A stretch of DNA of 37,405 nucleotides, from the IMG/VR virus record IMGVR_UViG_3300020197_002660, positions 1 to 37,405 of that record; one strand, given 5' to 3'. Both the position numbers and the translations under genes were made by a program. This document shows positions 17,510-32,997 of the stretch, in pieces (position 1 is the stretch's first letter; each line of letters starts with the position of its first letter). The stretch comes from a virus. The notes under the pieces were generated by a model. That model had not been told where the DNA came from and did not search any database. It was given only the letters and a program-made list of their open reading frames with translations.

Positions 17510-18103
17510 ATGTTTAATCCTTATGATTTGATTGTAATTGTACCTAATTACATTCCAAGTAAAAATATTAATATTTTGCGTGAATTAACAAATCAAGAAC
17601 CTTCTTCAGCTACAGTTGGTAATAGTTCTAGTGACGCTGAAAGTGTTAAATTAAAAGATAGAAATACTCTTTGGTATCCAATTCCTGAAGATTTACGGAA
17701 TAAACTAAATTTTACAATTTATCAAGCTCACGAAAGATTTTTAAAGCCAAAATATAACTCAACTCTAATTGATATAGAACCTCCTCAATTTCTAGAATAT
17801 CCTGTAGGAGGACACTATATTGAACATAATGATTCTGAATTTTTTAAAAATGGTGTCTGGGAAAGAGTTGTTCCAAGAGATATTGCAGTATTGTATTATT
17901 TAAATGATGATTATGAGGGAGGTGAAATAGAATTGACTAGTTTGGGGATAAAATTTAAACCCAGAGAGGGAACTTTGTTGGCATTTCCTGCTTACAAAGA
18001 ATATCCACATAAAGTTCATCCCGTAACTTCGGGAGTCAAGCACACAATTGTTTCATGGATAATAACGGAGAAGAAAGTATATGAAACACTTAGATTATCT
18101 TAG
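17510..18103 (+). CDS. 2-oxoglutarate/Fe(II) oxygenase, prolyl-4-hydroxylase type
   Basis: The 197-aa product matches the catalytic core of P4H-like oxygenases, which use 2-oxoglutarate and O2 to hydroxylate a substrate, often Pro or Lys in a protein. Visible ligands are H106-N-D108 (in G-H-Y-I-E-H-N-D-S-E), the distal His at H167 (Y-P-H-K-V-H-P-V), and a basic residue ten positions on (K177, where Arg or Lys binds the 2-oxoglutarate carboxylate). V-L-Y-Y-L-N-D-D-Y-E-G-G-E-I (127-140) is the usual strand-turn between them. It has no signal peptide and is cytoplasmic. It overlaps the next gene by 23 nt. It heads an operon behind the 14-blade adhesin, so a virion adhesin is the natural candidate substrate (inference). 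Confidence 0.85.
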   Translation: MFNPYDLIVIVPNYIPSKNINILRELTNQEPSSATVGNSSSDAESVKLKDRNTLWYPIPEDLRNKLNFTIYQAHERFLKPKYNSTLIDIEPPQFLEYPVGGHYIEHNDSEFFKNGVWERVVPRDIAVLYYLNDDYEGGEIELTSLGIKFKPREGTLLAFPAYKEYPHKVHPVTSGVKHTIVSWIITEKKVYETLRLS

Positions 18104-18668
18104 AGATGGATATGTTGTCATTAAAAATTTTATACCAAAACCATTTGCACTTTATCTTGCAAATTATTTGGACTTATTGAATAAAAATGAACAACTTGAA
18201 AATGGGGATGGGCAAGTTGATAAATCAAAATCAATTTATGGAGACCCTGCATTTGACACTCTCTTATCCATGTGCTGTGGTTCTTTAACAGAAACAATTC
18301 AAGTAGATTTGTTTCCAACATATACTTATGCTAGAATATATTTGAATGACTCTGAATTACTTCCTCATGTCGATAGACCAGAATGTGAACATTCAGTATC
18401 TGTGTGCTTATTCAAAGAAAAAAATATTGAATGGCCACTTTATATTCAAAATGAAGGTAACGAAATTGTTGGTATCAACCTAGAAATAGGTGATGCAGTA
18501 GTTTACAAAGGAAATAAACTATCTCACTGGAGAGAGAAATATGATGGAAAAGAACATTATCAATTGTTCATGCATTATGTAGATGCTCAAGGACAATTCA
18601 AAGATAATCTTTTTGATACTAGACCAAATTTAGGACTTCCTTCTGACACAAAAACAAAATGGAACTGA
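18081..18668 (+). CDS. Second 2OG-Fe(II) oxygenase-like protein
   Basis: The 195-aa product has a double-stranded beta-helix pattern. It carries Y-A-R-I-Y-L-N-D-S-E-L-L-P-H96-V-D98-R-P-E-C-E-H, which supplies the HxD pair, then G-D-A-V-V-Y-K-G-N-K-L-S-H149-W-R as distal His. The residue for the 2-oxoglutarate carboxylate is less clear (R151 or K157). It begins inside the end of the preceding oxygenase gene (23-nt overlap) and overlaps the next gene by 10 nt, so the three are translationally coupled. The L-P-H-V-D-R-P segment with a following E-H-S-V-S-V strand is reminiscent of phage and bacterial enzymes that hydroxylate small molecules or proteins. The substrate is unknown. Only ATG 18081 gives the full fold. 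Confidence 0.72.
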   Translation: MKHLDYLRDGYVVIKNFIPKPFALYLANYLDLLNKNEQLENGDGQVDKSKSIYGDPAFDTLLSMCCGSLTETIQVDLFPTYTYARIYLNDSELLPHVDRPECEHSVSVCLFKEKNIEWPLYIQNEGNEIVGINLEIGDAVVYKGNKLSHWREKYDGKEHYQLFMHYVDAQGQFKDNLFDTRPNLGLPSDTKTKWN

Positions 18669-20734: not shown

Positions 20735-23700
20735 ATGCCAAAGAGTTATCACAAGAGAAATTCTTTTAGTTTGTCAGGACACTATAACAAAACTTTGAAT
20801 GACGATTTCGGCGTATTTAATGTATATACTTCCGGAAGTAATTCACATAACCAATTAGGAAGGCAAAGTCAAGAAGGAGATTCCTCTTCTCCTGTTCAGG
20901 CATTTGGACTTAGTTCTCCAAGTTGGAAAATAATTACCAACTCTGGTTATCATGCACAATTTGGAATTAAAAATGACAATACTCTTTGGGCATGGGGACA
21001 TGATGGACTTGGTATAACTGGACAATCCAGCATGGGGCAAAAAAGAACTTCTCCAGTTCTTGTATTTTCTGATTATAATTGGTTAGACGTTGCCACAACA
21101 AAAGATCATAATGCAGTTGCATCAGCAGGAGTGGGAATTAAAACTGATGGAACTCTTTGGACATGGGGATCTAATAACCATGGTGTTGGTGGAGTAGATT
21201 CAAACTACTCACAAATAAAGTTTTCATCACCTGTTCAAGTAGGTATTGATACAAATTGGGCATTTGTAAAGAGACATGAGGGGTATTCGGACGATTTCTC
21301 TGCTTCTTGGATGTTGGCAGGTAAAACTGATGGAACTTTATGGGGATGGGGAGTTAATAACCATGGGCAATTGGGAGACGGCACAACAACGCCAAGATCT
21401 TCACCTGTTCAAGTTACTGGACTCAACTGGTCCGACAAATTAGCATCTTTCTATACAGGATTTGTTGGTGTTAAAACTGATGGAACTCTTTGGACATGCG
21501 GTTACAACGGCCATGGAGAATTAGGTCAAAATGATACAACTAGCAGAAGTGCTCCATCTCAAGTAGGTACTCTTTCCAATTGGAGTAAATGTTCTGCAGG
21601 GTCGCATGCATGTTATGCAATAAAAACCGATAATACTCTATGGGCATGGGGACATAATCCTGTAGGAGAAATTGGAAATAATTCCACATCAAATAGTGTT
21701 GCATCACCAGTGCAAGTATCAGGAAGTTGGATTGATATTGTAGGTGCTGGAAGATGTGCTTTTGGTATTAAAACTGGTGGAACTTTATGGGGATGGGGGC
21801 ATGGAGGTAGAGGATATGAACATGTTAATCTTGGAATTAATAACACTGCCAACGCTTCTTCTCCACAACAAATTGGTGCTGACACTTGGACTAATGTTTG
21901 GGGAAGCGCTACTAATGTGTGGGCAAGAAAATCAGATGGTAGTATTTGGGGATGGGGTAGAAACGGCGGAAGACTTCTTGGTTCGGGTCATAGTTACCCA
22001 GCAGGTGCTGTCGTAACTCCAAATAGAGAGTACGAAGAATATATTAATTATTCTTCTCCAGTTCAAGTTATGGCACCTGGAGGAACTAACAACTGGCCTA
22101 AAATTTCAATTTCTCCTAGAAGAGTATACTTAATTAATAGTAATAATCGTCTCTATGGTATGGGTTGGGATGAAAGTCTAGATGTTTTCTCTGAAAGCAG
22201 AAGTTCTCCAATTCAAATTCCTGGATCTTGGAGTTTTATTACTAGTGGTCTTTACAGCACTTTTGGCATAAGAACTAACGGAACCCTGTGGCACTGGGGA
22301 ACCGGTGGATGGGGACAAGGTGGAAATAGATATAATGTCGATACTTCTTCTCCAATTCAAATCGGATCTGATACTGATTGGGATACTGTTTCAACTAATT
22401 ATCATGGAGTCTATGCAAGAAAAACAAATGGATCCTTATATAGTTGGGGTCACAATGCCCATGGGCACTTAGGTCAAAATGATACAACTTCACGATCATC
22501 ACCGAATCAAATTCCAGGGACATGGAAAACAGTAGGAACTTCTTATGGACATGAAGGATGGAATGGAAATCATGGTACTGTGTATCATGTTTTAGCAACA
22601 AAGTCTGATGATAGTCTTTGGGCATGGGGGCATAATGATCATGGTCAAGTTCGTGGTGACTGGGCAAGAAAGAACTCATCTCCAATACAAATGAATTCTG
22701 ATTTATGGCAATCTGTAGCAGCAAGTCATCGTGGAAACATGTATGCCGTAACATCTGGTGGTTCTCTATGGTCTTTCGGTGGAGCAAATCAACATGGGCA
22801 ATTGGGAATGAATGACACTATACCCAGATCATCACCCACACAAATTCCAGGAAGTGGATGGGAACAAGTTCAAGCAGCTGGTCATCATTGCTCCGCATTG
22901 AAGACTGACGATACCTTATGGATGTGGGGACATAACAACCATGGACAACATGGTTTCGGTGATGCTTCTGATAGATCCACCCCCCACCAAACAAGAAGTA
23001 ATGTAAGAATGTGGAATGTATGGAGAGATAACTCAATTGTCGTACAGAACGACAGTAATATGTTTACCGTTGGAAGAAATAACCACGGTCAACTTGGACT
23101 TAATAACACAACACTCCATTACGGCTGGCAACAAGTAGGTAGTAACCAATGGAGAAATGCTTCTATTGGTCATAATCACGCTGCTGCGGTAAGAAATGAT
23201 GGAACCCTTTGGGCATGGGGGCACAATAATCTTGGTCAAGTTGGAAACAATACTGCCACCAATTATTCTTCTCCAATCCAGATAGGTTCTTTATCAACTT
23301 GGTCACAGGCACATTGTGGATATAATCAGACCTGGGCTCTTAAAAATGATGGAACTCTATGGGCATGGGGACAAAATAATGATGGACAACTTGGAGTTGG
23401 AAATACCGTATCCTATTCATCTCCCGTACAACTTTCAGGTACTATTTGGTCAAACATGACAATTACCGACATGTATCAATCCGATGATAATGACAGAGGA
23501 CACTTTGGAGTCATTCAAGTTTATGGTTCTCAAACTAATGGTACTCTCTGGGCATGGGGTAAGGGATACAATTACCAGTTAGGTCAATCTTTAAATGTTA
23601 ATTATTCATCTCCTGTACAAATTCCAGGGACATGGAAAATGGTAGGTGATCTCACTGGTGCTGAAAATAACACCAACTTCATCTCAAGAAAACCATTTGC

Positions 23701-24286
23701 GGTAAACTGGCAAACTGGATTTGCAATTAAAAATGATAATACCCTTCAGCAAATGGGTATGCATCCAGATGATCATCATATCCCAAATTATTCAACAACC
23801 TCAGGTGTGGGTACTGGTGCCGCTAATGGAAACTTATTCCATACTGCGGGTGGTCAACCTGCAGTTGGTAATGATGCATCTTCTCCAATTCAAATTATGC
23901 CTGGAACTTGGATCAGTGGAAAAGCTGGTAGATATCGTGTTTCAGTAGCTTTAAGATCAGATAACACTCTTTGGACATGGGGGTATAACCATTACGGACA
24001 AACAGGAAGTGGTGATAGAGCGAATCGTTCATCTCCAATTCAAGTTCCAGGAACAGGATGGTTATCTGCGGAACTTGGTTCATATGGATCTATAAATGGA
24101 ATTAGATCTGATGGAACATGGTGGGGAATTGGTTATGATGGTCATGGTGCTCTTGGATGGGGAAGAAATTTAAGCACATCTTCTCCAGTTCAAGCACCTG
24201 GTTCAAATTACACAGTCTTTGATAATCAACAACATTATAATGTTTCTGGGTATCATTGTTTCCATGGAGCAAAAGAAAAAAGATAA
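20735..24286 (+). CDS. Giant RCC1-type beta-propeller adhesin, 21 blades (three propellers)
   Basis: This 1183-aa protein has a ~26-residue leader (P-K-S-Y-H-K-R-N-S-F-S-L-S-G) and, by hand count, twenty-one RCC1 repeats, which fits three closed seven-bladed propellers. Typical blades read G-T-L-W-A-W-G-H-N-N-x-G-Q-x-G and S-S-P-(V/I)-Q-I-P-G-(T/S)-W. Insertions of 10-25 aa occur in blades 3, 8, 11, 17, 18 and 19. I count about 63 tryptophans (~5%), far above normal. There is no signal peptide, membrane anchor or catalytic motif. Blade 19 (N-T-L-Q-Q-M-G) is the least canonical. It is likely the largest receptor-binding or decoration protein of the tail. It is followed at once by a late promoter and the second enzyme operon. 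Confidence 0.88.
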   Translation: MPKSYHKRNSFSLSGHYNKTLNDDFGVFNVYTSGSNSHNQLGRQSQEGDSSSPVQAFGLSSPSWKIITNSGYHAQFGIKNDNTLWAWGHDGLGITGQSSMGQKRTSPVLVFSDYNWLDVATTKDHNAVASAGVGIKTDGTLWTWGSNNHGVGGVDSNYSQIKFSSPVQVGIDTNWAFVKRHEGYSDDFSASWMLAGKTDGTLWGWGVNNHGQLGDGTTTPRSSPVQVTGLNWSDKLASFYTGFVGVKTDGTLWTCGYNGHGELGQNDTTSRSAPSQVGTLSNWSKCSAGSHACYAIKTDNTLWAWGHNPVGEIGNNSTSNSVASPVQVSGSWIDIVGAGRCAFGIKTGGTLWGWGHGGRGYEHVNLGINNTANASSPQQIGADTWTNVWGSATNVWARKSDGSIWGWGRNGGRLLGSGHSYPAGAVVTPNREYEEYINYSSPVQVMAPGGTNNWPKISISPRRVYLINSNNRLYGMGWDESLDVFSESRSSPIQIPGSWSFITSGLYSTFGIRTNGTLWHWGTGGWGQGGNRYNVDTSSPIQIGSDTDWDTVSTNYHGVYARKTNGSLYSWGHNAHGHLGQNDTTSRSSPNQIPGTWKTVGTSYGHEGWNGNHGTVYHVLATKSDDSLWAWGHNDHGQVRGDWARKNSSPIQMNSDLWQSVAASHRGNMYAVTSGGSLWSFGGANQHGQLGMNDTIPRSSPTQIPGSGWEQVQAAGHHCSALKTDDTLWMWGHNNHGQHGFGDASDRSTPHQTRSNVRMWNVWRDNSIVVQNDSNMFTVGRNNHGQLGLNNTTLHYGWQQVGSNQWRNASIGHNHAAAVRNDGTLWAWGHNNLGQVGNNTATNYSSPIQIGSLSTWSQAHCGYNQTWALKNDGTLWAWGQNNDGQLGVGNTVSYSSPVQLSGTIWSNMTITDMYQSDDNDRGHFGVIQVYGSQTNGTLWAWGKGYNYQLGQSLNVNYSSPVQIPGTWKMVGDLTGAENNTNFISRKPFAVNWQTGFAIKNDNTLQQMGMHPDDHHIPNYSTTSGVGTGAANGNLFHTAGGQPAVGNDASSPIQIMPGTWISGKAGRYRVSVALRSDNTLWTWGYNHYGQTGSGDRANRSSPIQVPGTGWLSAELGSYGSINGIRSDGTWWGIGYDGHGALGWGRNLSTSSPVQAPGSNYTVFDNQQHYNVSGYHCFHGAKEKR

Positions 24287-24289: not shown

Positions 24290-24320
24290 CTCCTGAGTTT
24301 TGATTTATTCTTTATTCTTT

Positions 24321-25025
24321 ATGCTCAATTATAGCAATTCGTATGATTTAAATATAGAAAGTGCATATATTATAAGTTTGAAAGATAATGAAATCTCGCA
24401 GGGTTTGACAAAAAGATGTGCCAAATCCTGTGAGTTCGTTGGTCAACCTTATAAGATTTTTAATGGATTTGATGGAAGTAGTGGAGAAGTAATTGTTCCG
24501 GAAGAATTAAAAGGACAGTCGTGGTTAAAGTGGTTAAGACTTCACGATTGTACATTAACTCCAACTCAAATTGGATGTGTTTATAGTCATTTTGCTCTTT
24601 GGACAAAGTGTTTAGAATTAGATAGACCGATCATAATACTAGAACATGATAGTATTATGGTAGAAAAATTTGTGTTTCATCCAGTTTTTAATTCTATTGT
24701 TTATTTGGGAAGTAGGGAGCAATATTCGGGATCTCCAATCTATCCTACTCCTCCACATGGATCTGACAACAACGGTCTTTATAGATTTATATGTAGGGCT
24801 CATGCATATTCTATAGATCCAACCGTAGCAAAGAATATGATTTCATATGTACTAAAGATGGGAATTCATACATCTTTAGATGTTATGCTTCGTTCTGATA
24901 TAATTCCAATGTGTCAAATTGGATTTTATGCTTATGATTCTCCAGATATATCAACGATTCACAAAGAAGAATGGGTAAATAGATTATTTCATAGAGGAAT
25001 AGAATATGGCACAAATCAACTGTGA
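24321..25025 (+). CDS. GT25-family-like glycosyltransferase
   Basis: I start at ATG 24321 (234 aa). A TTG 21 nt upstream is possible but would fall too close to the promoter. The order A-Y-I-I-S-L-K-D (15-22), then G-C-V-Y-S-H-F-A-L-W (85-94), then P-I-I-I-L-E-H-D (103-110) is the hallmark of GT25 enzymes, which include bacterial LPS galactosyltransferases and animal collagen hydroxylysine galactosyltransferases. The usual E-D-D is E-H-D here, a conservative-looking departure at the metal site. There is no signal peptide, so it is cytoplasmic. It overlaps the next gene, a 2OG oxygenase, by 20 nt. The pairing of hydroxylase and GT25 recalls hydroxylysine glycosylation (inference). Confidence 0.78.
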   Translation: MLNYSNSYDLNIESAYIISLKDNEISQGLTKRCAKSCEFVGQPYKIFNGFDGSSGEVIVPEELKGQSWLKWLRLHDCTLTPTQIGCVYSHFALWTKCLELDRPIIILEHDSIMVEKFVFHPVFNSIVYLGSREQYSGSPIYPTPPHGSDNNGLYRFICRAHAYSIDPTVAKNMISYVLKMGIHTSLDVMLRSDIIPMCQIGFYAYDSPDISTIHKEEWVNRLFHRGIEYGTNQL

Positions 25026-25536
25026 TTTTGTAGAAAAATTAATCCCTATTTTTACTACAAAATTAGAAAACTATGAAGGAAAAAATACTTTCCTTCTTCA
25101 TCTAATATCAGAATTAAAAAAACAAAATCCAGATTCTGATGTGAGTAATGTTAAAGCATGGCATAAATGGTTGACAAATGAAAATGTGGGATTTGAATCT
25201 ATTGTTTCTGAAATTGTCGCTGCGTGTAATTTTATTGGATCGGAATTTTCTAAAGAATCAAAAGAAAAAATAAAATTTAAATCACATAATCTTTGGGTTA
25301 TAGAGTATGAAGAAGGAGATTATACTAAAATACACACTCATTTTCCTTCAGATTTTTCGTGTGTTTACTATATTGACGTTGCCGAAGATTCTTCTCCAAT
25401 GATTATTGAAGGAAGAATAAAAATAAAACCCGAAAATGGACTTTTAGTTATATTTCCAGGAATTTTAGATCATGAAGTTCCAAAAACAAAAGGAAAAAGG
25501 ACAGTCTTATCTTTAAATGTTATTAAAGATTATTGA
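25006..25536 (+). CDS. Putative 2OG-Fe(II) oxygenase (HxH variant)
   Basis: The 176-aa product has the layout of the small phage 2OG-FeII_Oxy_5-type oxygenases. It shows W-V-I-E-Y-E-E-G-D-Y-T-K-I-H110-T-H112-F-P, then C-V-Y-Y-I-D-V, then I-K-I-K-P-E-N-G-L-L-V-I-F-P (138-151), then the distal H156 and R165 in a final strand. The metal-binding pair reads HxH instead of HxD, which occurs in some of these families, so activity is plausible but not certain. The N-terminal ~90 residues are helical and contain W-H-K-W-L. It overlaps the GT25 gene by 20 nt and precedes another glycosyltransferase by 9 nt. The substrate is unknown. Confidence 0.68.
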   Translation: MAQINCDFVEKLIPIFTTKLENYEGKNTFLLHLISELKKQNPDSDVSNVKAWHKWLTNENVGFESIVSEIVAACNFIGSEFSKESKEKIKFKSHNLWVIEYEEGDYTKIHTHFPSDFSCVYYIDVAEDSSPMIIEGRIKIKPENGLLVIFPGILDHEVPKTKGKRTVLSLNVIKDY

Positions 25537-25545
25537 GGTAAATAA

Positions 25546-26181
25546 ATGAAAAAAATTTTACATGTAGTTAATATTAATAATTTTTTCCCAGAATTATTTG
25601 CTTATACTTTTCCAACAATAAAAAAATTCGCAAAAAGACATGGTTGGGAAATAAATTTAATTACTGAAAGAAAGTTTCCAGAATGGCATATTAATTATGA
25701 AAAAATGCAAGTTTGGGAAGATGGAAAAAATGCAGACATTAATCTTTTGGTAGATGCTGATGTTTTAATTCATCCCCAATTCCCATGCGCCTCTGATATT
25801 GTCCCAAATCACTATGTTGGTTTTAATGATAATTATCATGCTAGTAAAAAATTTTTACTAAATGATTATTTCATTAGAGATGGAAGAGATGTTGGAATAG
25901 CATCAAATTTTGTTGTTACGCATAAATCAACTCATGAATTATGGAAACCATTAAAAAATATAACTCCAGATCAAGGAAAAGAAATTACTTTTATTAGAGA
26001 AGGTGATATTGACGAATATTGCCTATCTTGCAACATGGCAAAATATGGGTTAAAATATTGCGGCATTACTTGGGAACCTTGGATGAGAAAATTTTTGGTA
26101 CACACTGGTACGGGTGATAAAGAACTTGCACTTCAAATGGCAAAAAAAGCAACAGAAGAATGGAAAATGTTTGAAGTATGA
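25546..26181 (+). CDS. Small glycosyltransferase-like protein (DxD)
   Basis: The 211-aa product begins K-K-I-L-H-V-V-N-I-N and has I-N-L-L-V-D70-A-D72-V-L-I-H-P (65-76), a DxD motif of GT-A transferases of the GT8-like kind, after an alternating beta/alpha N-terminus. Later parts (G-I-A-S-N-F-V-V-T-H, D-E-Y-C-L-S, I-T-W-E-P-W) fit the acceptor half of such enzymes but are not diagnostic. It has no signal peptide. AGG-T lies just before its ATG, and its stop overlaps the next start in ATGA, so translation is coupled to the heptose nucleotidyltransferase. It may transfer a sugar made by this operon; that is inference. Confidence 0.62.
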   Translation: MKKILHVVNINNFFPELFAYTFPTIKKFAKRHGWEINLITERKFPEWHINYEKMQVWEDGKNADINLLVDADVLIHPQFPCASDIVPNHYVGFNDNYHASKKFLLNDYFIRDGRDVGIASNFVVTHKSTHELWKPLKNITPDQGKEITFIREGDIDEYCLSCNMAKYGLKYCGITWEPWMRKFLVHTGTGDKELALQMAKKATEEWKMFEV

Positions 26182-26579
26182 AAAAAATTTTTGTAAATGG
26201 AACTTTTGATGTTCTTCATGTTGGACACTTAAAGTTATTGAACTATGCAAAATCTCTAGGTGACTATTTAATTGTTGGTATAGATGTTGATGAAAGAGTG
26301 GCGGAAAAAAAAGGTTCATCTAGACCAATCAATAAAATAGATGAACGAGAATTAATGTTATTAAATCTTAAAGCAGTAGATGAGGTTCGTTCATTTTCCA
26401 GCGATGAGGATCTAGAAAATATGGTAAAATCTATAAAACCTGATATAATGGTTGTTGGATCTGATTGGAAAGACAAAAGCGTCATAGGTTCGTACTATGC
26501 CTCTGAATTAAAATTTTTTGATAGGATAAATGAATACTCAACAACAAAAATTATTCAAGATATTATTAATAGGAGATAG
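26178..26579 (+). CDS. rfaE2: D-glycero-beta-D-manno-heptose 1-phosphate adenylyltransferase-like nucleotidyltransferase
   Basis: This 133-aa protein has F-V-N-G-T-F-D-V-L-H14-V-G-H17 (5-17), the HxGH nucleotide-binding motif of the cytidylyltransferase superfamily, followed by R-P-I-N, then I-M-V-V-G-S-D-W-K and Y-S-T-T-K-I-I (the S-T-T-x-I signature) near the end. This pattern fits the C-terminal half of HldE, which joins heptose 1-phosphate and ATP to ADP-heptose. The next gene encodes the matching kinase half, which supports this over glycerol-phosphate cytidylyltransferase (TagD), the main alternative. The order is reversed relative to fused HldE, and the two frames overlap by 50 nt. The enzyme is cytoplasmic. 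Confidence 0.8.
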   Translation: MKKIFVNGTFDVLHVGHLKLLNYAKSLGDYLIVGIDVDERVAEKKGSSRPINKIDERELMLLNLKAVDEVRSFSSDEDLENMVKSIKPDIMVVGSDWKDKSVIGSYYASELKFFDRINEYSTTKIIQDIINRR

Positions 26580-27279
26580 TTGTATTGATGAATATGTATA
26601 TGGAACATGTGATAGATTGAATCCAGAAGCCCCCGTACCTGTTTTAAATTATATTAAAAAAGTAACAACTAAAGGTATGGCTTGGAATGTTTATAATAAC
26701 TTAAAAGTTTTTGATGTGGACATTCATTTTATAACTAATTCTGAAGAGATAATCAAGACAAGATTTATAGATCAAAAATCCAATCAACAAATTTTGAGAT
26801 TGGATTTAGAAACTAATGTAAGTCCTTTATCAGAAGAAATACCGGACATAGAATGGGATGGGATTGTAATATCAGATTACAATAAAGGTTTTATACAAAA
26901 AGAAAAAATATTTGAAATAACTAAAAAATATAATTGCCCTATTTTTATTGACAGCAAAAAAGATGAACTTCCGTTAGAGAATTGTTTTATTAAAATCAAT
27001 AATATAGAAGCAAAAAACTTAAAAAGTAAAAATAAAAATGTAATTGTAACTATGGGATCCAAAGGAGCAATGTATAATAATACACTCTATCCAGGAGAAA
27101 ATGTGAATGTATATGATGTAGTTGGTGCCGGAGATACTTTTCTAGCAGCAGTTTCCTATGGATACATAAAAACTAAATCTATCGATTATGCGATACAATT
27201 TGCAAATAAATGTTCTTCTATTGCTGTACAGCATAGGGGAACTTATGTATTAAGTAAAGAAGATATAAATTATGAATAA
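26530..27279 (+). CDS. rfaE1: D-glycero-beta-D-manno-heptose-7-phosphate kinase-like PfkB protein, shortened
   Basis: The 249-aa product has L-L-I-G-D-S-C-I-D-E-Y-V-Y-G, then L-N-P-E-A-P-V-P-V-L-N (30-40), a close match to the HldE kinase N-terminus. Q-Q-I-L-R-L-D-L-E and the PfkB signature V-G-A-G-D202-T with the catalytic Asp follow. HldE kinase domains are usually ~310-320 aa. The loss appears to lie after residue 40, where the G-G-A-A-N-V-A segment is replaced by K-G-M-A-W-N-V-Y and ~35 residues are missing. It may be a minimal or altered kinase. Its start lies 50 nt inside the preceding gene; this ATG is needed for the first beta strand. Role inferred: phosphorylation at C1 of heptose 7-phosphate. 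Confidence 0.78.
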   Translation: MNTQQQKLFKILLIGDSCIDEYVYGTCDRLNPEAPVPVLNYIKKVTTKGMAWNVYNNLKVFDVDIHFITNSEEIIKTRFIDQKSNQQILRLDLETNVSPLSEEIPDIEWDGIVISDYNKGFIQKEKIFEITKKYNCPIFIDSKKDELPLENCFIKINNIEAKNLKSKNKNVIVTMGSKGAMYNNTLYPGENVNVYDVVGAGDTFLAAVSYGYIKTKSIDYAIQFANKCSSIAVQHRGTYVLSKEDINYE

Positions 27280-27329
27280 GTCTTTGCATCGTATTTTAAT
27301 TTCTTTTAATATCCACAAATATATTTAAA

Positions 27330-27659
27330 ATGGCAACATATGTAATTGATATTGATCACACTATCTGTAAGAATGGGAAATGTAGTGCTTGTAAATATGA
27401 ACATAGTGTTCCATATCTAGATAGAATCAAAAAAATTAATGATTTATATGACAGTGGACATACAATCAAATACTTTACAGCAAGAGGTATGGGTAGATAT
27501 AATGATGATGCAAATAAATCCCGCGAAAAATTTTATTCTTTAACCAAAATGCAATTGGATTTATGGGGATGTAAATATCATGAACTAATTTTGGGTAAGC
27601 CCTCTGCAGATTACTACATAGATGATAAGGCAATAAATTCAAATGACTTCTTCACTTAA
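27330..27659 (+). CDS. Small HAD-superfamily phosphatase-like protein
   Basis: This 109-aa protein starts Y-V-I-D7-I-D9-H-T-I-C, the HAD nucleophile motif DxDxT, followed by Y-F-T-A-R-G (48-53, HAD motif II region) and Y-Y-I-D-D-K-A-I-N (95-103, the acidic motif). A C-x-x-C pair sits at 18-21. This compact family is common in polysaccharide gene clusters of bacteria and phages. In the heptose pathway a HAD phosphatase (GmhB, ~190 aa) removes the 7-phosphate. This protein is much shorter, so equivalence is possible but unproven. It overlaps the cupin gene by 17 nt and lies 50 nt after the kinase. Confidence 0.72.
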   Translation: MATYVIDIDHTICKNGKCSACKYEHSVPYLDRIKKINDLYDSGHTIKYFTARGMGRYNDDANKSREKFYSLTKMQLDLWGCKYHELILGKPSADYYIDDKAINSNDFFT

Positions 27660-27996
27660 ATTTGTTCCCAAAGGATGGGGATTTGAAAAATGGATTGTTA
27701 ATACTGAGCAGTATTGCGGCAAACTTTTATATTTTGCTAAAGGGAGGAAGTGTTCTTGGCATTATCATAAAATAAAGGATGAAACCTTTTATATTCAATC
27801 AGGAAAACTGATATTGTTTTATGGAAATGATGATGATATAAATTTGGCACAAAAAAAAGTCCTACGAAAAGGAGACAAATTTCATGTTCCTGTAGGACTT
27901 AGACATAGAATGTATGCTCTTGAAGATACCGAAATGTTTGAGTTTTCAACAGAACATTTTGAAGAAGATAGTTATAGAATTATTAGTGGAGATTGA
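27643..27996 (+). CDS. Cupin-domain protein
   Basis: This 117-aa single-domain cupin shows C-S-W-H40-Y-H42-K-I-K-D-E47-T-F-Y-I-Q-S-G-K-L (motif 1 with metal ligands His, His, Glu) and G-D-K-F-H-V-P-V-G-L-R-H88-R (motif 2 with the final His). It resembles the sugar-phosphate isomerase-type cupins in polysaccharide operons, and could act as isomerase, epimerase or binding protein for a sugar phosphate. It ends the seven-gene plus-strand operon. Its stop is 14 nt past the stop of the opposing hldD-like gene. Its own coding DNA contains the probable terminator of that minus-strand operon (27851-27900). Confidence 0.75.
   Translation: MTSSLKFVPKGWGFEKWIVNTEQYCGKLLYFAKGRKCSWHYHKIKDETFYIQSGKLILFYGNDDDINLAQKKVLRKGDKFHVPVGLRHRMYALEDTEMFEFSTEHFEEDSYRIISGD
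27851..27900 (-). terminator. Intrinsic terminator for the minus-strand hldD/halogenase operon, inside the cupin gene
   Basis: Read on the minus strand: a 9-bp stem arm AAGTCCTAC (27900-27892), a 26-nt interior that can itself pair AGGA with TCCT, the second arm GTAGGACTT (27865-27857), then U residues continuing to 27851, a run of eight with the stem. It lies about 83-130 nt after the hldD stop. On the plus strand the same stem has no T-run after it. Confidence 0.72.
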
Positions 27997-28768
27997 GATA
28001 ATCTTCAATTGTAATAAATTTATAGTCATCTAACCAAGACATATCTGCACAAGTGTATGTTTGGTATTTACCTTTTAAATGATCTGGAAAGGGAACGGTA
28101 TTAATAGTACCGTTCTCTTTTTTTGCAACTAACTCTGCTACATGTTGGAATGATACTGGAGACCCTGTTCCAAGGTCATAGATGCCGCTTCCAACTTTGT
28201 TATAAAGAACAATATTAACAACATCATCAACACATACAAAGTCTCTTAGGAAGCGATCAGAACCCTCAAAAAGATTTAATTTACCTGTTTCTTTAATTTC
28301 TTCTGCAAATTTACTTACAGGGCTTGCTTGATTACCTTTGTGTTTTTCTCCATTACCATATACATTGAAGTATCTGAATCCTTGTATAAAAGAAAATTTT
28401 TCCAAATTATCTAAAACCCAATAATCAATTTGAAGTTTAGATATTGCATATTGATTTAATGGATTAATTTCTCCCAAACTATTTCCATATACAGAAGCAG
28501 ATGAAGCATATTTAATTGGGATTTGATATTGAATTGCTTTTTCTAAAAGGCAAAGGGTAAACTCAACATTATTTTGATATATTTTGCGTATATCCTTTTC
28601 AATTGTAGATGAGATTGCTCCCTGATGAACAATCAAATCTACCTTATCCCACTCATCAAATGTTTCTAAAAAATGAAAGGCATTATCTTTTTCTATTAAT
28701 AACACATCATTTAAGTGTTTGATAAATTTTTTTCCAATAAATCCAGAATAACCAGTCAATAAAATCAT
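27983..28768 (-). CDS. hldD: ADP-L-glycero-D-manno-heptose 6-epimerase-like protein
   Basis: The 261-aa SDR-fold protein has T-G-Y-S-G-F-I-G (5-12) for NAD(P), S-S-A-S-V-Y-G (89-95) and Y107-x-x-x-K111 as catalytic residues. Strings typical of HldD include F-R-Y-F-N-V-Y-G (131-138), H-K-G-N-Q-A-S, F-E-G-S-D-R-F-L-R-D-F-V-C-V (167-180) and F-P-D-H-L-K-G-K-Y-Q (227-236). HldD converts ADP-D,D-heptose to ADP-L,D-heptose, the donor used by heptosyltransferases. It is ~50 aa shorter than most HldD, mainly near the N-terminal half and the end. Its ATG overlaps the halogenase stop (ATGA). It converges with the kinase/nucleotidyltransferase operon, so this phage carries most of an ADP-heptose pathway. 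No GmhA isomerase is visible here. Confidence 0.87.
   Translation of the reverse strand: MILLTGYSGFIGKKFIKHLNDVLLIEKDNAFHFLETFDEWDKVDLIVHQGAISSTIEKDIRKIYQNNVEFTLCLLEKAIQYQIPIKYASSASVYGNSLGEINPLNQYAISKLQIDYWVLDNLEKFSFIQGFRYFNVYGNGEKHKGNQASPVSKFAEEIKETGKLNLFEGSDRFLRDFVCVDDVVNIVLYNKVGSGIYDLGTGSPVSFQHVAELVAKKENGTINTVPFPDHLKGKYQTYTCADMSWLDDYKFITIEDYLNLH
28093..28124 (+). terminator. Intrinsic terminator for the plus-strand enzyme operon, inside the antisense of hldD
   Basis: GAACGGTA (28093-28100), a 7-nt loop, TACCGTTC (28108-28115), then TC and seven T (28118-28124). A G-U and a G-C pair can extend the base of the stem. It is a textbook rho-independent structure for plus-strand transcripts, about 97-128 nt after the cupin stop. 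Confidence 0.8.
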
Positions 28769-30399
28769 TCTTCTATGTAATCCTCTCCATCATGAAAATT
28801 ATCTCTAACATATTCATAGAGTGTTGGTGATTTGTCTGCAATTTTTTGCCATTCTTTTTGCTTTTCTTTCCACTTTTCTATAACATTGTCTATAGAAGAT
28901 TTCATGACTTCTATAGGGGGAAGGAAATTTAAATAAGATGCATGCATTATATCTTGATAGTCAAATATACTATAGTTCATTCCAGGGCAAATGCAGTGCA
29001 TTCCACCTTTTTCTTCCTGATTATTTTTTATGAACAATCTAGAAATAGCATCTTCAGATGAACCAGAAGAGTAAATTAACTCTTTGCCCATCAAATCGCC
29101 AACATAACTTCTGTTACGTGTAATATCTTTCCAGTATTGAGTATCATCACGCTGTGACAATGGATAATGAAGGGCAACAAACTTACACATTCCATCGAAT
29201 AATGTATTTGTTATGAGATTATATGAATCAATGTCAAATCTATTGAAATTATCTCTTTCCAATGCACGAACTAATTTAAATAAGAATTCGTGTACAGTTA
29301 AAAGACCTGTACTTTCAAGAGGTTCTATAAATCCTGCAGCAAGTCCTATTGCAACAACATTTTTAACCCATGTTCTCTTGTGAATACCAATTCTCATTGA
29401 AATATCCTTATAATCAAGTTCATCGGGATTAAAATCTTCCCCTCTTTGAACTGCTAATTTATCCGATTTCAAATATTCTTTAAATTCTTTTAGTGCATCT
29501 TCTTTGCTAATGTACTTATCAGAATAAACATATCCAGTACCAATTCTACTCCACAGAGGAATATTCCAAACCCACCCATTACCAAGTGCTGTGCAGTTGG
29601 TATAGGGTTCCATTTCTTTTTCTTTATCCACATACTTTATTTTTGTGGCCCAAGCCTTATTATTTGGAATTAAGTGATCATATGAAATGAATTCCTCACC
29701 CATTGCTTTTCCAAGAAGAAGACTCTTCCATCCCGTACAATCGACAAATAAATCTGCAGTTACTGATTTACCATTATCGAGAATTAATTTTTCTACACCA
29801 TCTTTACCAACTTTAACATCTGTGACTTCTGCCGAAATATGCTTAACACCTCTAGGAATACAATACTTCTCACGAAGATAACATCCAAACTTAACTGCAT
29901 CAAAATGGAAAGATGAAGAGTGATTAAAATTAAATTGTTCAAGAGATCCATCCTCATTTTTGAACAATTTATTTCCCTCAATAATAGGCATTTGTGGGTA
30001 ATATGTCCTGCAATAATCTTCAGGAGGAGTTTCTGGATAAAATAATTTTTTAAAATACCATGCTCTCAACTTCTCTTCTCCAAAAAGTTCTTGATTCTCA
30101 TACACTCTTCCAAATGGATAATGGAAGGATCCGTAATCTTTTTTATAGAAATCTGTAAATTTGATACTTAATTTATATGATGCATCAGCATACTTGAATA
30201 AGTCTTTTTCATCAATGCCTAATGCACGAATAAAATACGTAAATTGACCTAAAGTACTTTCACCAACTCCAATAATTGGAGTATTTGGACTTTCTATAAC
30301 TGTGATGTCTTTGTACGGAAAAAATCTAATTAAAGTAGCTGCGGTCATCCATCCAGCAGACCCTCCGCCAACTACTGCAATCTTATTGGAACTATACAT
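28765..30399 (-). CDS. Flavin-dependent tryptophan halogenase
   Basis: The 544-aa product has the full signature of FAD-dependent halogenases: G11-G-G-S-A-G-W-M (FAD-binding GxGxxG region), I-G-V-G-E-S-T (43-49), K76 in S-Y-K-L-S-I-K-F (matching the catalytic Lys79 of PrnA), W276-V-W-N-I-P281 (the diagnostic WxWxIP) and E362 in P-L-E-S-T-G-L (matching Glu346 of PrnA). These enzymes use FADH2, O2 and a halide to make HOX, which is led to the substrate by the Lys. From memory, a related cyanophage enzyme (VirX1) was shown to iodinate indole-type substrates. No flavin reductase gene is visible here. The gene is first of a two-gene minus-strand operon. Free or peptide-bound aromatic substrates are both possible. 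Confidence 0.92.
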   Translation of the reverse strand: MYSSNKIAVVGGGSAGWMTAATLIRFFPYKDITVIESPNTPIIGVGESTLGQFTYFIRALGIDEKDLFKYADASYKLSIKFTDFYKKDYGSFHYPFGRVYENQELFGEEKLRAWYFKKLFYPETPPEDYCRTYYPQMPIIEGNKLFKNEDGSLEQFNFNHSSSFHFDAVKFGCYLREKYCIPRGVKHISAEVTDVKVGKDGVEKLILDNGKSVTADLFVDCTGWKSLLLGKAMGEEFISYDHLIPNNKAWATKIKYVDKEKEMEPYTNCTALGNGWVWNIPLWSRIGTGYVYSDKYISKEDALKEFKEYLKSDKLAVQRGEDFNPDELDYKDISMRIGIHKRTWVKNVVAIGLAAGFIEPLESTGLLTVHEFLFKLVRALERDNFNRFDIDSYNLITNTLFDGMCKFVALHYPLSQRDDTQYWKDITRNRSYVGDLMGKELIYSSGSSEDAISRLFIKNNQEEKGGMHCICPGMNYSIFDYQDIMHASYLNFLPPIEVMKSSIDNVIEKWKEKQKEWQKIADKSPTLYEYVRDNFHDGEDYIEE

Positions 30400-30433
30400 A
30401 ATTAATACAATAATAACTTTTGTATTTAGTGAT

Positions 30434-30490
30434 AATGAAAAATAACTTTTTGACTGATGAGAACAACAATTTTAACGATGAAATCATTTT
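30434..30490 (+). repeat. 57-bp direct repeat, left copy
   Basis: Covers the start of the 2OG oxygenase gene at 30435. It matches 33178-33234 at 54 of 57 positions (spacing 2744 nt), starting one base before the ATG. Confidence 0.93.
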
Positions 30491-31004
30491 CATGCAAGAT
30501 AATTTTTTGCCCAACTGTGACCAAATAAGGCAAATAGCGTTATCTCAAAATTATGAATGTAAAAACACTGGTAATGACTGGAGAGGTTGTAGAAGCAGAG
30601 AATTAATATCTCAAAATCATTCAGTCTTGAATGATATGAGTTTAAAAATTTTCTCTGAATTAATTAAATTTTATGATTTATATGATCTCTACATTGGCGT
30701 TCAAACTTTTTTTCATTATAGCACAGAAGAAACAAAAAAATACTGTCTTCCATCATTTGATGTGTTTAAATTACATAAAGATTCTAAAAATGTTTTGTTA
30801 GCTGGAGTGATATATTTACATCCAGAACCTAAAAGTGGTTGTGGAACAGTTTTAATAAATGAGTTTGGTGGGGAGAATAAATACTTTGAGAATGTTTATA
30901 ACAGAATAATATGTTATCCAGGTGTAATTTTGCATGGACCAAATGATTTATTTGGGGATTCGTTGGAAACTGGAAGAATGACCGTTACATTTTTTATTGG
31001 ATGA
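30435..31004 (+). CDS. 2OG-Fe(II) oxygenase-like protein
   Basis: I start at ATG 30435 (189 aa), because the downstream repeat copies the sequence from this codon on; a TTG at 30420 would add five residues. F-K-L-H114-K-D116 gives the HxD pair, V-I-L-H167-G-P-N the distal His and G-R181-M-T the 2-oxoglutarate-binding Arg. The intervening strands G-V-I-Y-L-H-P-E-P-K-S-G-C-G-T-V-L fit a double-stranded beta-helix. Such proteins are frequent in cyanophages, often annotated only as hypothetical. It is divergent from the halogenase operon and ends 13 nt before the permease gene. The substrate is unknown. Confidence 0.72.
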   Translation: MKNNFLTDENNNFNDEIIFMQDNFLPNCDQIRQIALSQNYECKNTGNDWRGCRSRELISQNHSVLNDMSLKIFSELIKFYDLYDLYIGVQTFFHYSTEETKKYCLPSFDVFKLHKDSKNVLLAGVIYLHPEPKSGCGTVLINEFGGENKYFENVYNRIICYPGVILHGPNDLFGDSLETGRMTVTFFIG

Positions 31005-31017
31005 TTTTTTAACTATC

Positions 31018-31803
31018 ATGAATTTAGAATACTGGTATATTTTTCCTTTAGCGATATGTGTCTGTATATTGTGTAATGCTTCTGGGTTTTCTGGAAGTGT
31101 TTTATTTCAACCATTCTTCAACTTTATTCTTCAAGTCCCGATTGCACAATCAGTTGCCACTGGTATTGCTACCGAAACAATTGGCATGAGTAGTGGTGCT
31201 TTTAGATATTGGAGAATCGGTAATAAAATTGATCTTAAAGCAGTCAAAAAAGTATTCCCATATGTGTATGCTGGTATTTCTTCTGGTATTTTCTTGTTTA
31301 TTTTTCTTCCTAAACTTTGGTTGAGACTTTTAGTTGGTTTAGTTATTTTTACAATCGCTAGTTACCAACTGTACCTTGCTTATCGCGGTAAATTTGGAAC
31401 TGCCGATAAAGCAGATTTAAAAATACTTAGTAGTTTAAAATGTAGAATTAAACAATTCTTTGCTGGTGTTGCTTCTGCTTCAACTGGTACGGGTGTTGCT
31501 GAAATCCATCAACCGATGTTTGAACAGGATGCTGGTCTTGATACAAAAAAAGCAAATGCATCTGCTATTTTAATTGAAGCACTTGGTAACTGGTTTATTA
31601 CTTTGTTGAATATTAAACTTGGCAATATCAATTATGAAATTCTTATTTTCAGTGCTTGTGGTGTTCTTATCGGTGGACAGATTGGACCTTATGTAGCAAA
31701 TTATATTCCACAAAGAATATTAAAAACTATGTTTGGCGTTTCAGTATCTACAATTGGACTGATCTATATTTTCACATCCTTGCAAAAATTAAATTTAATT
31801 TAA
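31018..31803 (+). CDS. TauE/SafE-family anion permease
   Basis: I start at ATG 31018 (261 aa); a TTG at 30997 lies inside the preceding gene and seems unnecessary. There are about seven to eight hydrophobic segments, in two halves separated by a polar loop near residue 135 (G-T-A-D-K-A-D-L-K). The first half has a G-F-S-G-S-x-L-F-Q-P motif with A-x-x-T-G-I-A-T-E, and the second G-V-A-S-A-S-T-G-T-G-V-A-E-I-H-Q-P, the paired pore motifs of TauE/SafE (TSUP) carriers. Known members move sulfite, sulfonates and other organic or inorganic anions. A membrane carrier in this otherwise virion-centred cluster, flanked by halogenases, raises the question of halide or sulfur-compound transport in the infected cell (inference). 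Confidence 0.85.
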   Translation: MNLEYWYIFPLAICVCILCNASGFSGSVLFQPFFNFILQVPIAQSVATGIATETIGMSSGAFRYWRIGNKIDLKAVKKVFPYVYAGISSGIFLFIFLPKLWLRLLVGLVIFTIASYQLYLAYRGKFGTADKADLKILSSLKCRIKQFFAGVASASTGTGVAEIHQPMFEQDAGLDTKKANASAILIEALGNWFITLLNIKLGNINYEILIFSACGVLIGGQIGPYVANYIPQRILKTMFGVSVSTIGLIYIFTSLQKLNLI

Positions 31804-31806
31804 GTT

Positions 31807-32997
31807 ATGAAAGTAGCAATTATCGGAAAAGGAACTAGTGGTATCATAAGTGCATTAGTCTGCATAATCAATGGATTTGATGTTGAAATCTTTTATGACC
31901 CAGATGCACCACATATATCAATCGGAGAATCTACAACTCCACACATATCACAAATAGTAAAAACAGTCTTTAATCATTTAACTTTAGACAGGTTAATTGA
32001 TAAAAATATAGTTTCTTTAAAAAAAGGCATAAAATTTGTAGGTTGGGGTGTTGGAGAAACATTTTCCCACTCATTTACAGATAATAATAATTCTTTTCAC
32101 TTTGAAACATCAAAGTTTAATCCCGTAATTCATTTTGAATTTGAAAAGATAGGGGTAAAATATCATGGAGAAAAAGTTAATGGATATAAGATTGAAAATG
32201 AAAAAATCATATTAAACGAAAAGTCTTATGATTTTGTCATAAATTGTACAGGATGGAATGATAATCCAGATTATGTTTATCCATTTTTAGAAACTGTAAA
32301 TTCAGCTGCCATTTATATAAAAGATTCGGTAGATCCCGAAATAGGAAATTATACGATACATACGGCGACCGAAGACGGATGGGAATTTGGTCTACCATTC
32401 CCCAAAGACAATATAACAAAACATGGATATTTGTTTAATAAACATTATATTAGTCAAGAAGAAGTAAGCAAAAAACTTAACAAAGAAAACTTAAGATTTA
32501 TTTCATGGACTCCGAGATATGCAAGAAAATTAATCACTAATCCTTACATTGCACATAATGGAAATAGTTTATTTTTTGCAGAACCATTACAAGCTCTTTC
32601 ACTTTTATACTACTATCACTTTGCAAAATTGTTGTGTGAATTTATAAAAAATAAGAGTTATTTTTCAATGAATAAAGTAAATCATGATTATACTTCAGAA
32701 GTAGCAACTTATTTTTATTCTTTGGCATATCATTATCAGTTTGGTTCAATATACAAAGACTCTAAATTTTGGAACAATATTTCCGAAAAATCAAAAAATA
32801 TAATATCTTTCTTACCACAATTGGAATTCAATAACTTAGCGGATTTTATAGTCGCTGCGGAAAAAACAAATCAAGAAAACTTTGCAAAAATTGGAGTTTT
32901 TGAACCATGGGATTTAAAAACATTACAATGTGGATTTTTAAATATACCTTTTGATGAAATTATTAAGAAAAAATCAGAAAGTTCTTTTATTTTATAA
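31807..32997 (+). CDS. Second, divergent flavin-dependent halogenase-like protein
   Basis: The 396-aa product is homologous in layout to the upstream halogenase but shorter. It has I-I-G-K-G-T-S-G (5-12) for FAD, S-I-G-E-S-T-T-P (38-45), K72 in S-L-K-K-G-I-K-F at the catalytic lysine position, and I-N-C-T-G-W. The WxWxIP motif is changed to W192-E-F-G-L-P197. The halogenase P-L-E-S-T-G becomes P-L-Q262-A-L-S, so the assisting Glu is replaced by Gln. It may have altered halide or substrate use, or act as a flavin hydroxylase instead. It starts 3 nt after the permease gene, indicating one transcript, and ends 3 nt before a truncated gene. Confidence 0.8.
   Translation: MKVAIIGKGTSGIISALVCIINGFDVEIFYDPDAPHISIGESTTPHISQIVKTVFNHLTLDRLIDKNIVSLKKGIKFVGWGVGETFSHSFTDNNNSFHFETSKFNPVIHFEFEKIGVKYHGEKVNGYKIENEKIILNEKSYDFVINCTGWNDNPDYVYPFLETVNSAAIYIKDSVDPEIGNYTIHTATEDGWEFGLPFPKDNITKHGYLFNKHYISQEEVSKKLNKENLRFISWTPRYARKLITNPYIAHNGNSLFFAEPLQALSLLYYYHFAKLLCEFIKNKSYFSMNKVNHDYTSEVATYFYSLAYHYQFGSIYKDSKFWNNISEKSKNIISFLPQLEFNNLADFIVAAEKTNQENFAKIGVFEPWDLKTLQCGFLNIPFDEIIKKKSESSFIL

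Follow-up and report, generated by a model that had tools for sequence, protein, structure and literature searches.

A predicted VirX1-type halogenase and a divergent oxygenase–permease–flavoprotein operon in a Kyanoviridae-like phage fragment

The DNA considered here, referred to below as the window, is a linear IMG/VR fragment of 37,405 bases (record IMGVR_UViG_3300020197_002660), in which two divergent gene units meet at about 30.4 kb across a gap of 35 bases and encode two flavoproteins of the halogenase family, HalA and HalB. The large subunit of its terminase shares 82% identity with those of Synechococcus phages Sf-CH5 and Sf-CH8 and it contains T4-type tail-fibre and baseplate genes; the window is therefore a Kyanoviridae-like myophage fragment. 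On the minus strand, the gene for HalA (28765..30399; 544 residues) overlaps by four bases that for a nucleotide-sugar (HldD-like) epimerase (27983..28768; PF01370 and phrog_540). The plus strand carries a tight operon for a DUF6445-type Fe(II)/2-oxoglutarate (2OG) oxygenase (30435..31004; 189 residues, with a possible earlier TTG start at 30420), a TauE/SafE-family permease (30997..31803; 268 residues; hereafter TauE) and HalB (31807..32997; 396 residues), the two junctions being −8 and +3 bases. The reading frames of HalA, TauE and HalB lie where an earlier note on this DNA had located them and the genes it named are real, although it left the oxygenase gene between HalA and TauE unmentioned. 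HalA is not part of the permease unit, being on the opposite strand and paired with the epimerase. The profile E-values for the HalA, TauE and HalB gene families (8e-102, 2.5e-29 and 8.9e-21, respectively) are far beyond chance, and relatives of these genes are under purifying selection, with ratios of nonsynonymous to synonymous substitution (dN/dS) of about 0.04–0.2.

HalA is predicted to be a VirX1-type flavin-dependent halogenase (FDH). It is homologous to PF04820 over its full length (342 bits) and has, as the earlier note had claimed, all the diagnostic halogenase residues: alignment with VirX1 of cyanophage Syn10 identifies the flavin adenine dinucleotide (FAD) motif GGGSAG, the lysine K76, the motif GWVWNIP in the place of the WxWxIP signature and, within PLESTG, the catalytic glutamate E362. 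These sequence diagnostics are shared with the tryptophan halogenases PrnA, RebH and PyrH. In a sequence search of the PDB, the top match is VirX1 itself (6qgm, E 8e-108), followed at a distance by bacterial tryptophan halogenases (best E 4e-76) and by MibH, the lanthipeptide tryptophan 5-halogenase (E 3.5e-47). VirX1 is a characterised trimeric FDH with broad substrates, an open site and a preference for iodide over bromide over chloride (PMC8407142). HalA resembles it in fold family, length, the lysine, WxWxIP and glutamate motifs and cyanophage setting. Identity between the two is about 43% where they align, and their surroundings differ: HalA lies in an island of heptose and RCC1 genes with the overlapping epimerase, whereas the gene for VirX1 is paired in tandem with another halogenase gene. 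Cyanophage relatives are numerous: annotated phages contain 67 records, and viral contigs no fewer than 593 stretches. With so many relatives and a best match from a characterised family, HalA is a further member of a known family. The catalytic glutamate is kept in 61 of the 64 members of the HalA set.

By analogy with the characterised family, HalA would use FADH2, probably supplied by host flavin reductases (none was identified in the window), and O2 to form a flavin hydroperoxide; halide would be oxidised to hypohalous acid, and this would move to K76 and then, assisted by E362, to an electron-rich aromatic in an open site. Some variation within the group may be recorded. Three loci (L028, L042 and L049) have VirX1-like genes with glutamine at the catalytic glutamate position (PLQSSG) and an intact WxWxIP motif; a second, upstream halogenase copy in L028 retains the glutamate. 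In Syn10 (L093) and P-TIM40 (L100) the VirX1-type gene overlaps, in tandem, a second and different gene of the halogenase family, and CPUG_00132, the tandem partner of VirX1, retains the motifs.

HalB, the gene beyond TauE, had been described as a second halogenase-type flavoenzyme. This holds for the fold: the AlphaFold2 (AF2) model (pLDDT 92, pTM 0.90) matches tryptophan halogenases with Z scores of about 30–38 and more than 350 residues aligned to most of them, MibH being among the matches. It does not hold for most of the diagnostic residues, none of which had been claimed. The lysine (K72) is retained, but GWEFGLP replaces WxWxIP and PLQALS (Q262-A-L-S) replaces PLESTG. PF04820 is matched in two pieces (75 bits), HalB is more than 100 residues shorter than PrnA, RebH and PyrH, and it lacks a segment that HalA and VirX1 have between the FAD motifs. 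A tree of 43 sequences places the compact proteins in a clade (support 100/100) apart from HalA and VirX1, and HalB within a subclade of 25, also supported at 100/100. The motifs were tallied over 38 unique compact phage members. All have the catalytic lysine, and all have phenylalanine in place of the second tryptophan of WxWxIP, as do ten further compact phage proteins. The glutamate position is occupied by glutamine in 26 (HalB included), by glutamate in 11 and by histidine in one, whereas all of the 21 bacterial relatives have the glutamate. In the halide loop, serine has become alanine in 38/38 and threonine leucine in 37/38, so that Ser-Thr-Gly reads Ala-Leu-Ser in 37 or 38. The dN/dS values of close pairs (about 0.07–0.17) indicate that HalB-type genes are maintained by selection.

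A search of viral contigs with the single HalB sequence gave no matches, and its relatives there were found by an alignment-based search. The closest named relatives are proteins of S-SCSM1 and P-TIM40 annotated as tryptophan halogenase, the S-SCSM1 protein being one that has the catalytic glutamate. A bacterial source was considered and rejected: the sole close bacterial match, in Nonlabens (38%), lies among cyanophage genes on what has the look of a phage contig. The sequence concerned (L174; NZ_RMVE01000006.1 of Nonlabens xiamenensis, 188,235 bases) has P-TIM40-like phage flanks around the HalB relative and has the appearance of a cyanophage genome within a bacterial assembly.

On its sequence, then, HalB retains the fold and catalytic lysine of a halogenase and lacks the WxWxIP motif, the catalytic glutamate and the Ser-Thr-Gly loop; despite the fold it ought not to be classed as one, and a different flavin-dependent oxidation seems the likelier activity. 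The phenylalanine at the second tryptophan, the altered halide loop and the change from glutamate to glutamine together suggest that halogenation has been lost. An intact WxWxIP motif is thought to prevent monooxygenation, and one indole halogenase lost its activity on mutation of the glutamate to glutamine (both according to a review). Several points weigh against such a loss and favour a halogenase with an altered site. The whole fold and the catalytic lysine are conserved, and one HalB subclade retains the glutamate; the glutamate/glutamine difference tracks clades and so represents few events. The change of glycine to serine in the halide loop is also found in 19 of the 21 bacterial relatives, which look intact. 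CndH-type halogenases are not known to have an equivalent glutamate residue and other halogenase types tolerate its loss, so loss of the glutamate alone does not exclude halogenation. We nevertheless regard it as unlikely that HalB still halogenates, given that the second tryptophan and the serine, threonine and glycine are changed in nearly every member, along with the glutamate in most.

The first gene of the HalB operon is assigned to PF20043 (DUF6445) by a marginal match, 24.7 bits against a curated cut-off of 24 and over the C-terminal part only. Its H114, D116, H167 and R181, which make up an HxD...H triad with a distal arginine, are invariant in seven sequences, and the top Foldseek matches of its AF2 model (pLDDT 85) are 2OG oxygenases (E 1.7e-6 to 3e-4, TM scores of about 0.5–0.65), with prolyl hydroxylases among the best of them beside small-molecule 2OG enzymes. 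From family, residues and model together, the protein is predicted to be a DUF6445-type Fe(II)/2OG oxygenase. Phage members are shorter than those of PF20043 and divergent from them.

Pairing of DUF6445 with FDH-family genes is recurrent in phages and bacteria, and the two are sometimes fused. The 80 DUF6445-type loci found in viral contigs fall into 39 clusters, in 20 of which an FDH-family gene lies within 4 kb; in seven of the 20 the two genes abut or are fused. A control scan with the other 2OG gene of the window (at 25006) returned five loci only, too few to serve as a background rate for the 20/39. Two phage contigs encode a 681-residue fusion (L206:2480-4525 and L207:2480-4525) of a Trp_halogenase domain (312–325 bits) and a C-terminal DUF6445; in both, a second halogenase gene lies immediately 3′ of the fusion. 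Bacterial members of the family are also found directly after FDH genes, and three Undibacterium loci have DUF6445 either immediately after an FDH-family gene or overlapping it. DUF6445 is present in ten of 12 genomes chosen only for an FDH, compared with nine of 190 sampled from one class, a difference that is supporting rather than decisive because the two groups differ in taxonomy. HalB-type genes in particular stand beside DUF6445 and TauE in L088–L090 (in another gene order); in L127 they are next to DUF6445, and in L104 and L134 they lie in its vicinity. We found no published paper naming DUF6445. The pairing is a useful lead from the window, and it gives an uncharacterised family both a fold class and a partner, on the evidence of operons and fusions in phages and bacteria.

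TauE matches PF01925 at 103 bits over positions 2–235 of the 237 of the profile, so that the TauE/SafE carrier of the earlier note is confirmed as a member of that family, with a transport function that is predicted. Six relatives, 74–87% identical, occur in viral contigs, and none was found in annotated phage genomes at the sensitivity used. A proposed link of the permease to halide, as importer or exporter, is without support: TauE is grouped with HalB, which does not have the usual halide loop, and elsewhere a TauE-family gene stands alone between T4-type replication genes in a clamp-loader neighbourhood (L091:6001-6780), so that the permease looks like a mobile accessory gene. Nothing points to halide.

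Within the plus-strand unit, HalB would have shifted from canonical halogenation to another flavin-dependent oxidation, and HalB and the 2OG oxygenase would act in turn on one shared substrate, as the linkage and fusion of FDH and DUF6445 suggest. That substrate might be a small organic anion which TauE imports or exports and the two oxidases process. Purifying selection acts on TauE, and its gene directly adjoins those of both oxidases in the window and is next to them in L088–L090; a bacterial FDH locus (L179) is beside a TonB-dependent receptor. (We found no published paper on FDH–TonB–SapC loci.) However, no TauE gene was seen next to HalB and DUF6445 in L127, L104 or L134, and its isolated occurrence in L091 weakens any part for it in the trio. 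The DUF6445 fold, too, is nearest to peptidyl prolyl hydroxylases and small-molecule 2OG enzymes alike. A role of the trio in handling such an anion is thus possible, though we would not favour it.

The minus-strand unit is attached to a larger plus-strand island. A nucleotide-heptose-type cassette (26178..27996; Pfam and PHROGs) comprises genes for a nucleotidyltransferase (26178-26579), a PfkB kinase (26530-27279), a small DxDGT (HAD-like) protein (27330-27659) and a cupin (27643-27996). It is preceded by genes for a GT25 glycosyltransferase (24300-25025; Pfam), a second 2OG oxygenase (25006-25536; Pfam) and a conserved protein without family assignment (25546-26181), and these in turn by one for an RCC1 repeat adhesin of 1183 residues (20735..24286), all on the plus strand. 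Kinase, nucleotidyltransferase and epimerase of an ADP-heptose set are found; PHROGs names the protein at 27330 a phosphoheptose isomerase, but its sequence (DIDGT) is more like that of a small HAD protein, and Pfam offers no more than a sub-cutoff match in a relative. The juxtaposition of ADP-heptose-type genes and adhesin genes recalls, as an analogy, the heptosylation of autotransporter adhesins by TibC and Aah (PMC4358343), although no transferase of the TibC type was found.

The island is shared by the six HalA relatives that are closest (60–63% identity) among those on contigs of 10 kb or longer: one strand carries HalA and the epimerase, and the opposite strand carries genes for the cupin, the small HAD-like protein, the PfkB kinase, the nucleotidyltransferase and GT25. 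The HalA–epimerase pair is kept in L007–L012 and L038, and the unit of HalA, epimerase and heptose genes recurs around all relatives of at least 60% identity wherever the contig reaches. The marine virus AG-345-E08 is syntenic with about 17.5–28.8 kb of the window, with the same gene order over 24300..26181, and the fragment ends at the epimerase. The heptose cassette is also found in P-SSM2, S-CAM1 and S-CAM3. The slot upstream of the reverse-strand epimerase, which holds HalA in the window, is empty in S-CAM1 and S-CAM3 and holds a 2OG oxygenase in P-SSM2; in Sf-FS3 and S-SSM7 it holds a 2OG oxygenase resembling the DUF6445 type. A second association of halogenase and heptose genes was seen in S-SSM7 (L312; 107,510-113,847), where a distinct gene of the halogenase family directly adjoins the cassette on its opposite side, next to the nucleotidyltransferase.

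The tryptophan count and blade number that the earlier note gave for the adhesin are borne out. It has 63 tryptophans in 1183 residues (5.33%) and 13 W-x-W-G units, and 20 SPxQ blade motifs fit the proposed 21 or so RCC1 blades. Halogenation of exposed tryptophans (or tyrosines) of the RCC1 adhesins by HalA has some attractions: RCC1 arrays accompany HalA in the window and in six of six relatives that are 60% or more identical and lie on contigs of 10 kb or longer (L007 and five others), peptide tryptophan is halogenated by MibH, itself a structural match of HalB, and the site of VirX1 is open. A two-way test of co-occurrence does not support this link. W-x-W-G is commonplace within RCC1 repeats, and the RCC1 proteins of AG-345-E08, a fragment with no halogenase in it, contain 5.2–5.4% tryptophan and four to six such units each; those of the complete phage BUCT-ZZ01, which has no halogenase, have a similar tryptophan density (3.9%) and no W-x-W-G. 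Conversely, in the 30 HalA-relative records searched first, RCC1_2 exceeded the cut-off in one (L007), was below it in one and was absent from 28, and the complete Syn10, Sf-CH11, P-TIM40, S-B64 and S-CREM1 carry a HalA relative without an RCC1_2 repeat. HalA is also far closer to VirX1 than to MibH. We therefore reject the link to adhesin tryptophan as unsupported and consider this reading very improbable. RCC1 goes with the heptose island, and the conserved neighbourhood of HalA and RCC1 in the near subclade is evidence of linkage, not of substrate. Given the shared cassette, and RCC1 in the nearest relatives, a decorating role for HalA is possible. An association of HalA with glycine-rich tail proteins, seen in three isolates, was dropped, there being no enrichment across loci.

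HalA may instead act on a small aromatic metabolite of the host during infection, as the product of an auxiliary metabolic gene, which is what has been proposed for VirX1. The latter halogenates many small aromatics in vitro, and cyanophage FDHs have been suggested to alter host metabolites (PMC10452541) or to give protection from antibiotics (PMC2984593). On the other hand, no aromatic-pathway gene is nearby, the conserved neighbours being sugar-nucleotide, glycosyltransferase and 2OG genes; the last adjoin HalA-type genes in 19 of 62 cases against 10.8 expected from other genes of the same loci (P ~0.001, the loci not being independent). A host metabolite as substrate is a serious contender, falling a little short of an even chance.

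Our working interpretation, to which we give even chances, is of two units: a halogenase, HalA, that together with the epimerase belongs to the nucleotide-heptose and glycosyltransferase cassette beside the RCC1 adhesins, and a unit of oxygenase, TauE and HalB in which HalB has left canonical halogenation and works sequentially with the 2OG oxygenase. Both units would then supply tailoring oxidases for decoration of the virion or of the cell surface. The two strands of evidence on the nature of the substrates lean different ways. The GT25 and 2OG genes beside tail genes, along with a glycosyltransferase of GT25/PLOD type in Synechococcus phage S-8S55, lean towards decoration of protein; the TonB receptor beside a bacterial FDH, along with the phage TauE, leans towards small molecules. 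A stronger version, in which the flavoenzymes and DUF6445 form a two-oxidase post-translational system decorating virion adhesins with phage-made heptose nucleotides and glycosyltransferases, the HalB clade providing a non-halogenating oxidation, seems to us improbable. Certain findings count against the two-unit interpretation itself. Directly abutting FDH–DUF6445 pairs are a minority of the phage cases, the adjacency statistics are drawn from related loci that are not independent, for which reason all adjacency P values are indicative only, and the bacterial locus beside the TonB-dependent receptor is explained no less well by small-molecule metabolism than by surface decoration.

To our knowledge, cyanophage ‘tryptophan halogenase’ genes have been recognised for some 15 years without an agreed role. 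Under that annotation (phrog_2928; cyanophage prnA, T4-GC 212), both HalA and HalB are filed, and the class splits into two groups: sequences of true halogenases, and a compact clade that is maintained by selection and lacks the signature. Because the label mixes the two groups, many phage annotations probably overstate function. The PF04820 profile also exceeds its cut-off in E. coli, Methanocaldococcus and other control genomes not known for halogenases, which means that a Trp_halogenase match in Pfam does not by itself identify a halogenase.

Some smaller observations remain. Sigma-70-like promoter sites occur in the window at chance level only, and the T4-late promoter TATAAATA is without enrichment, with none near the genes of the halogenase region. 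The S-8S55 gene (L194:4920-6785; WLW37668.1) encodes 621 residues with GT25 and PLOD-type glycosyltransferase domains and is annotated as a 2OG oxygenase; it directly follows two 2OG oxygenases behind a tail fibre gene, an arrangement resembling that of collagen hydroxylysine glycosylation. Finally, a protein of the window at 18081-18668, labelled ‘ferrochelatase’ in PHROGs and unmatched in Pfam, turns up repeatedly (18 loci) in the vicinity of 2OG oxygenases and halogenase genes and may be a divergent 2OG-type protein.

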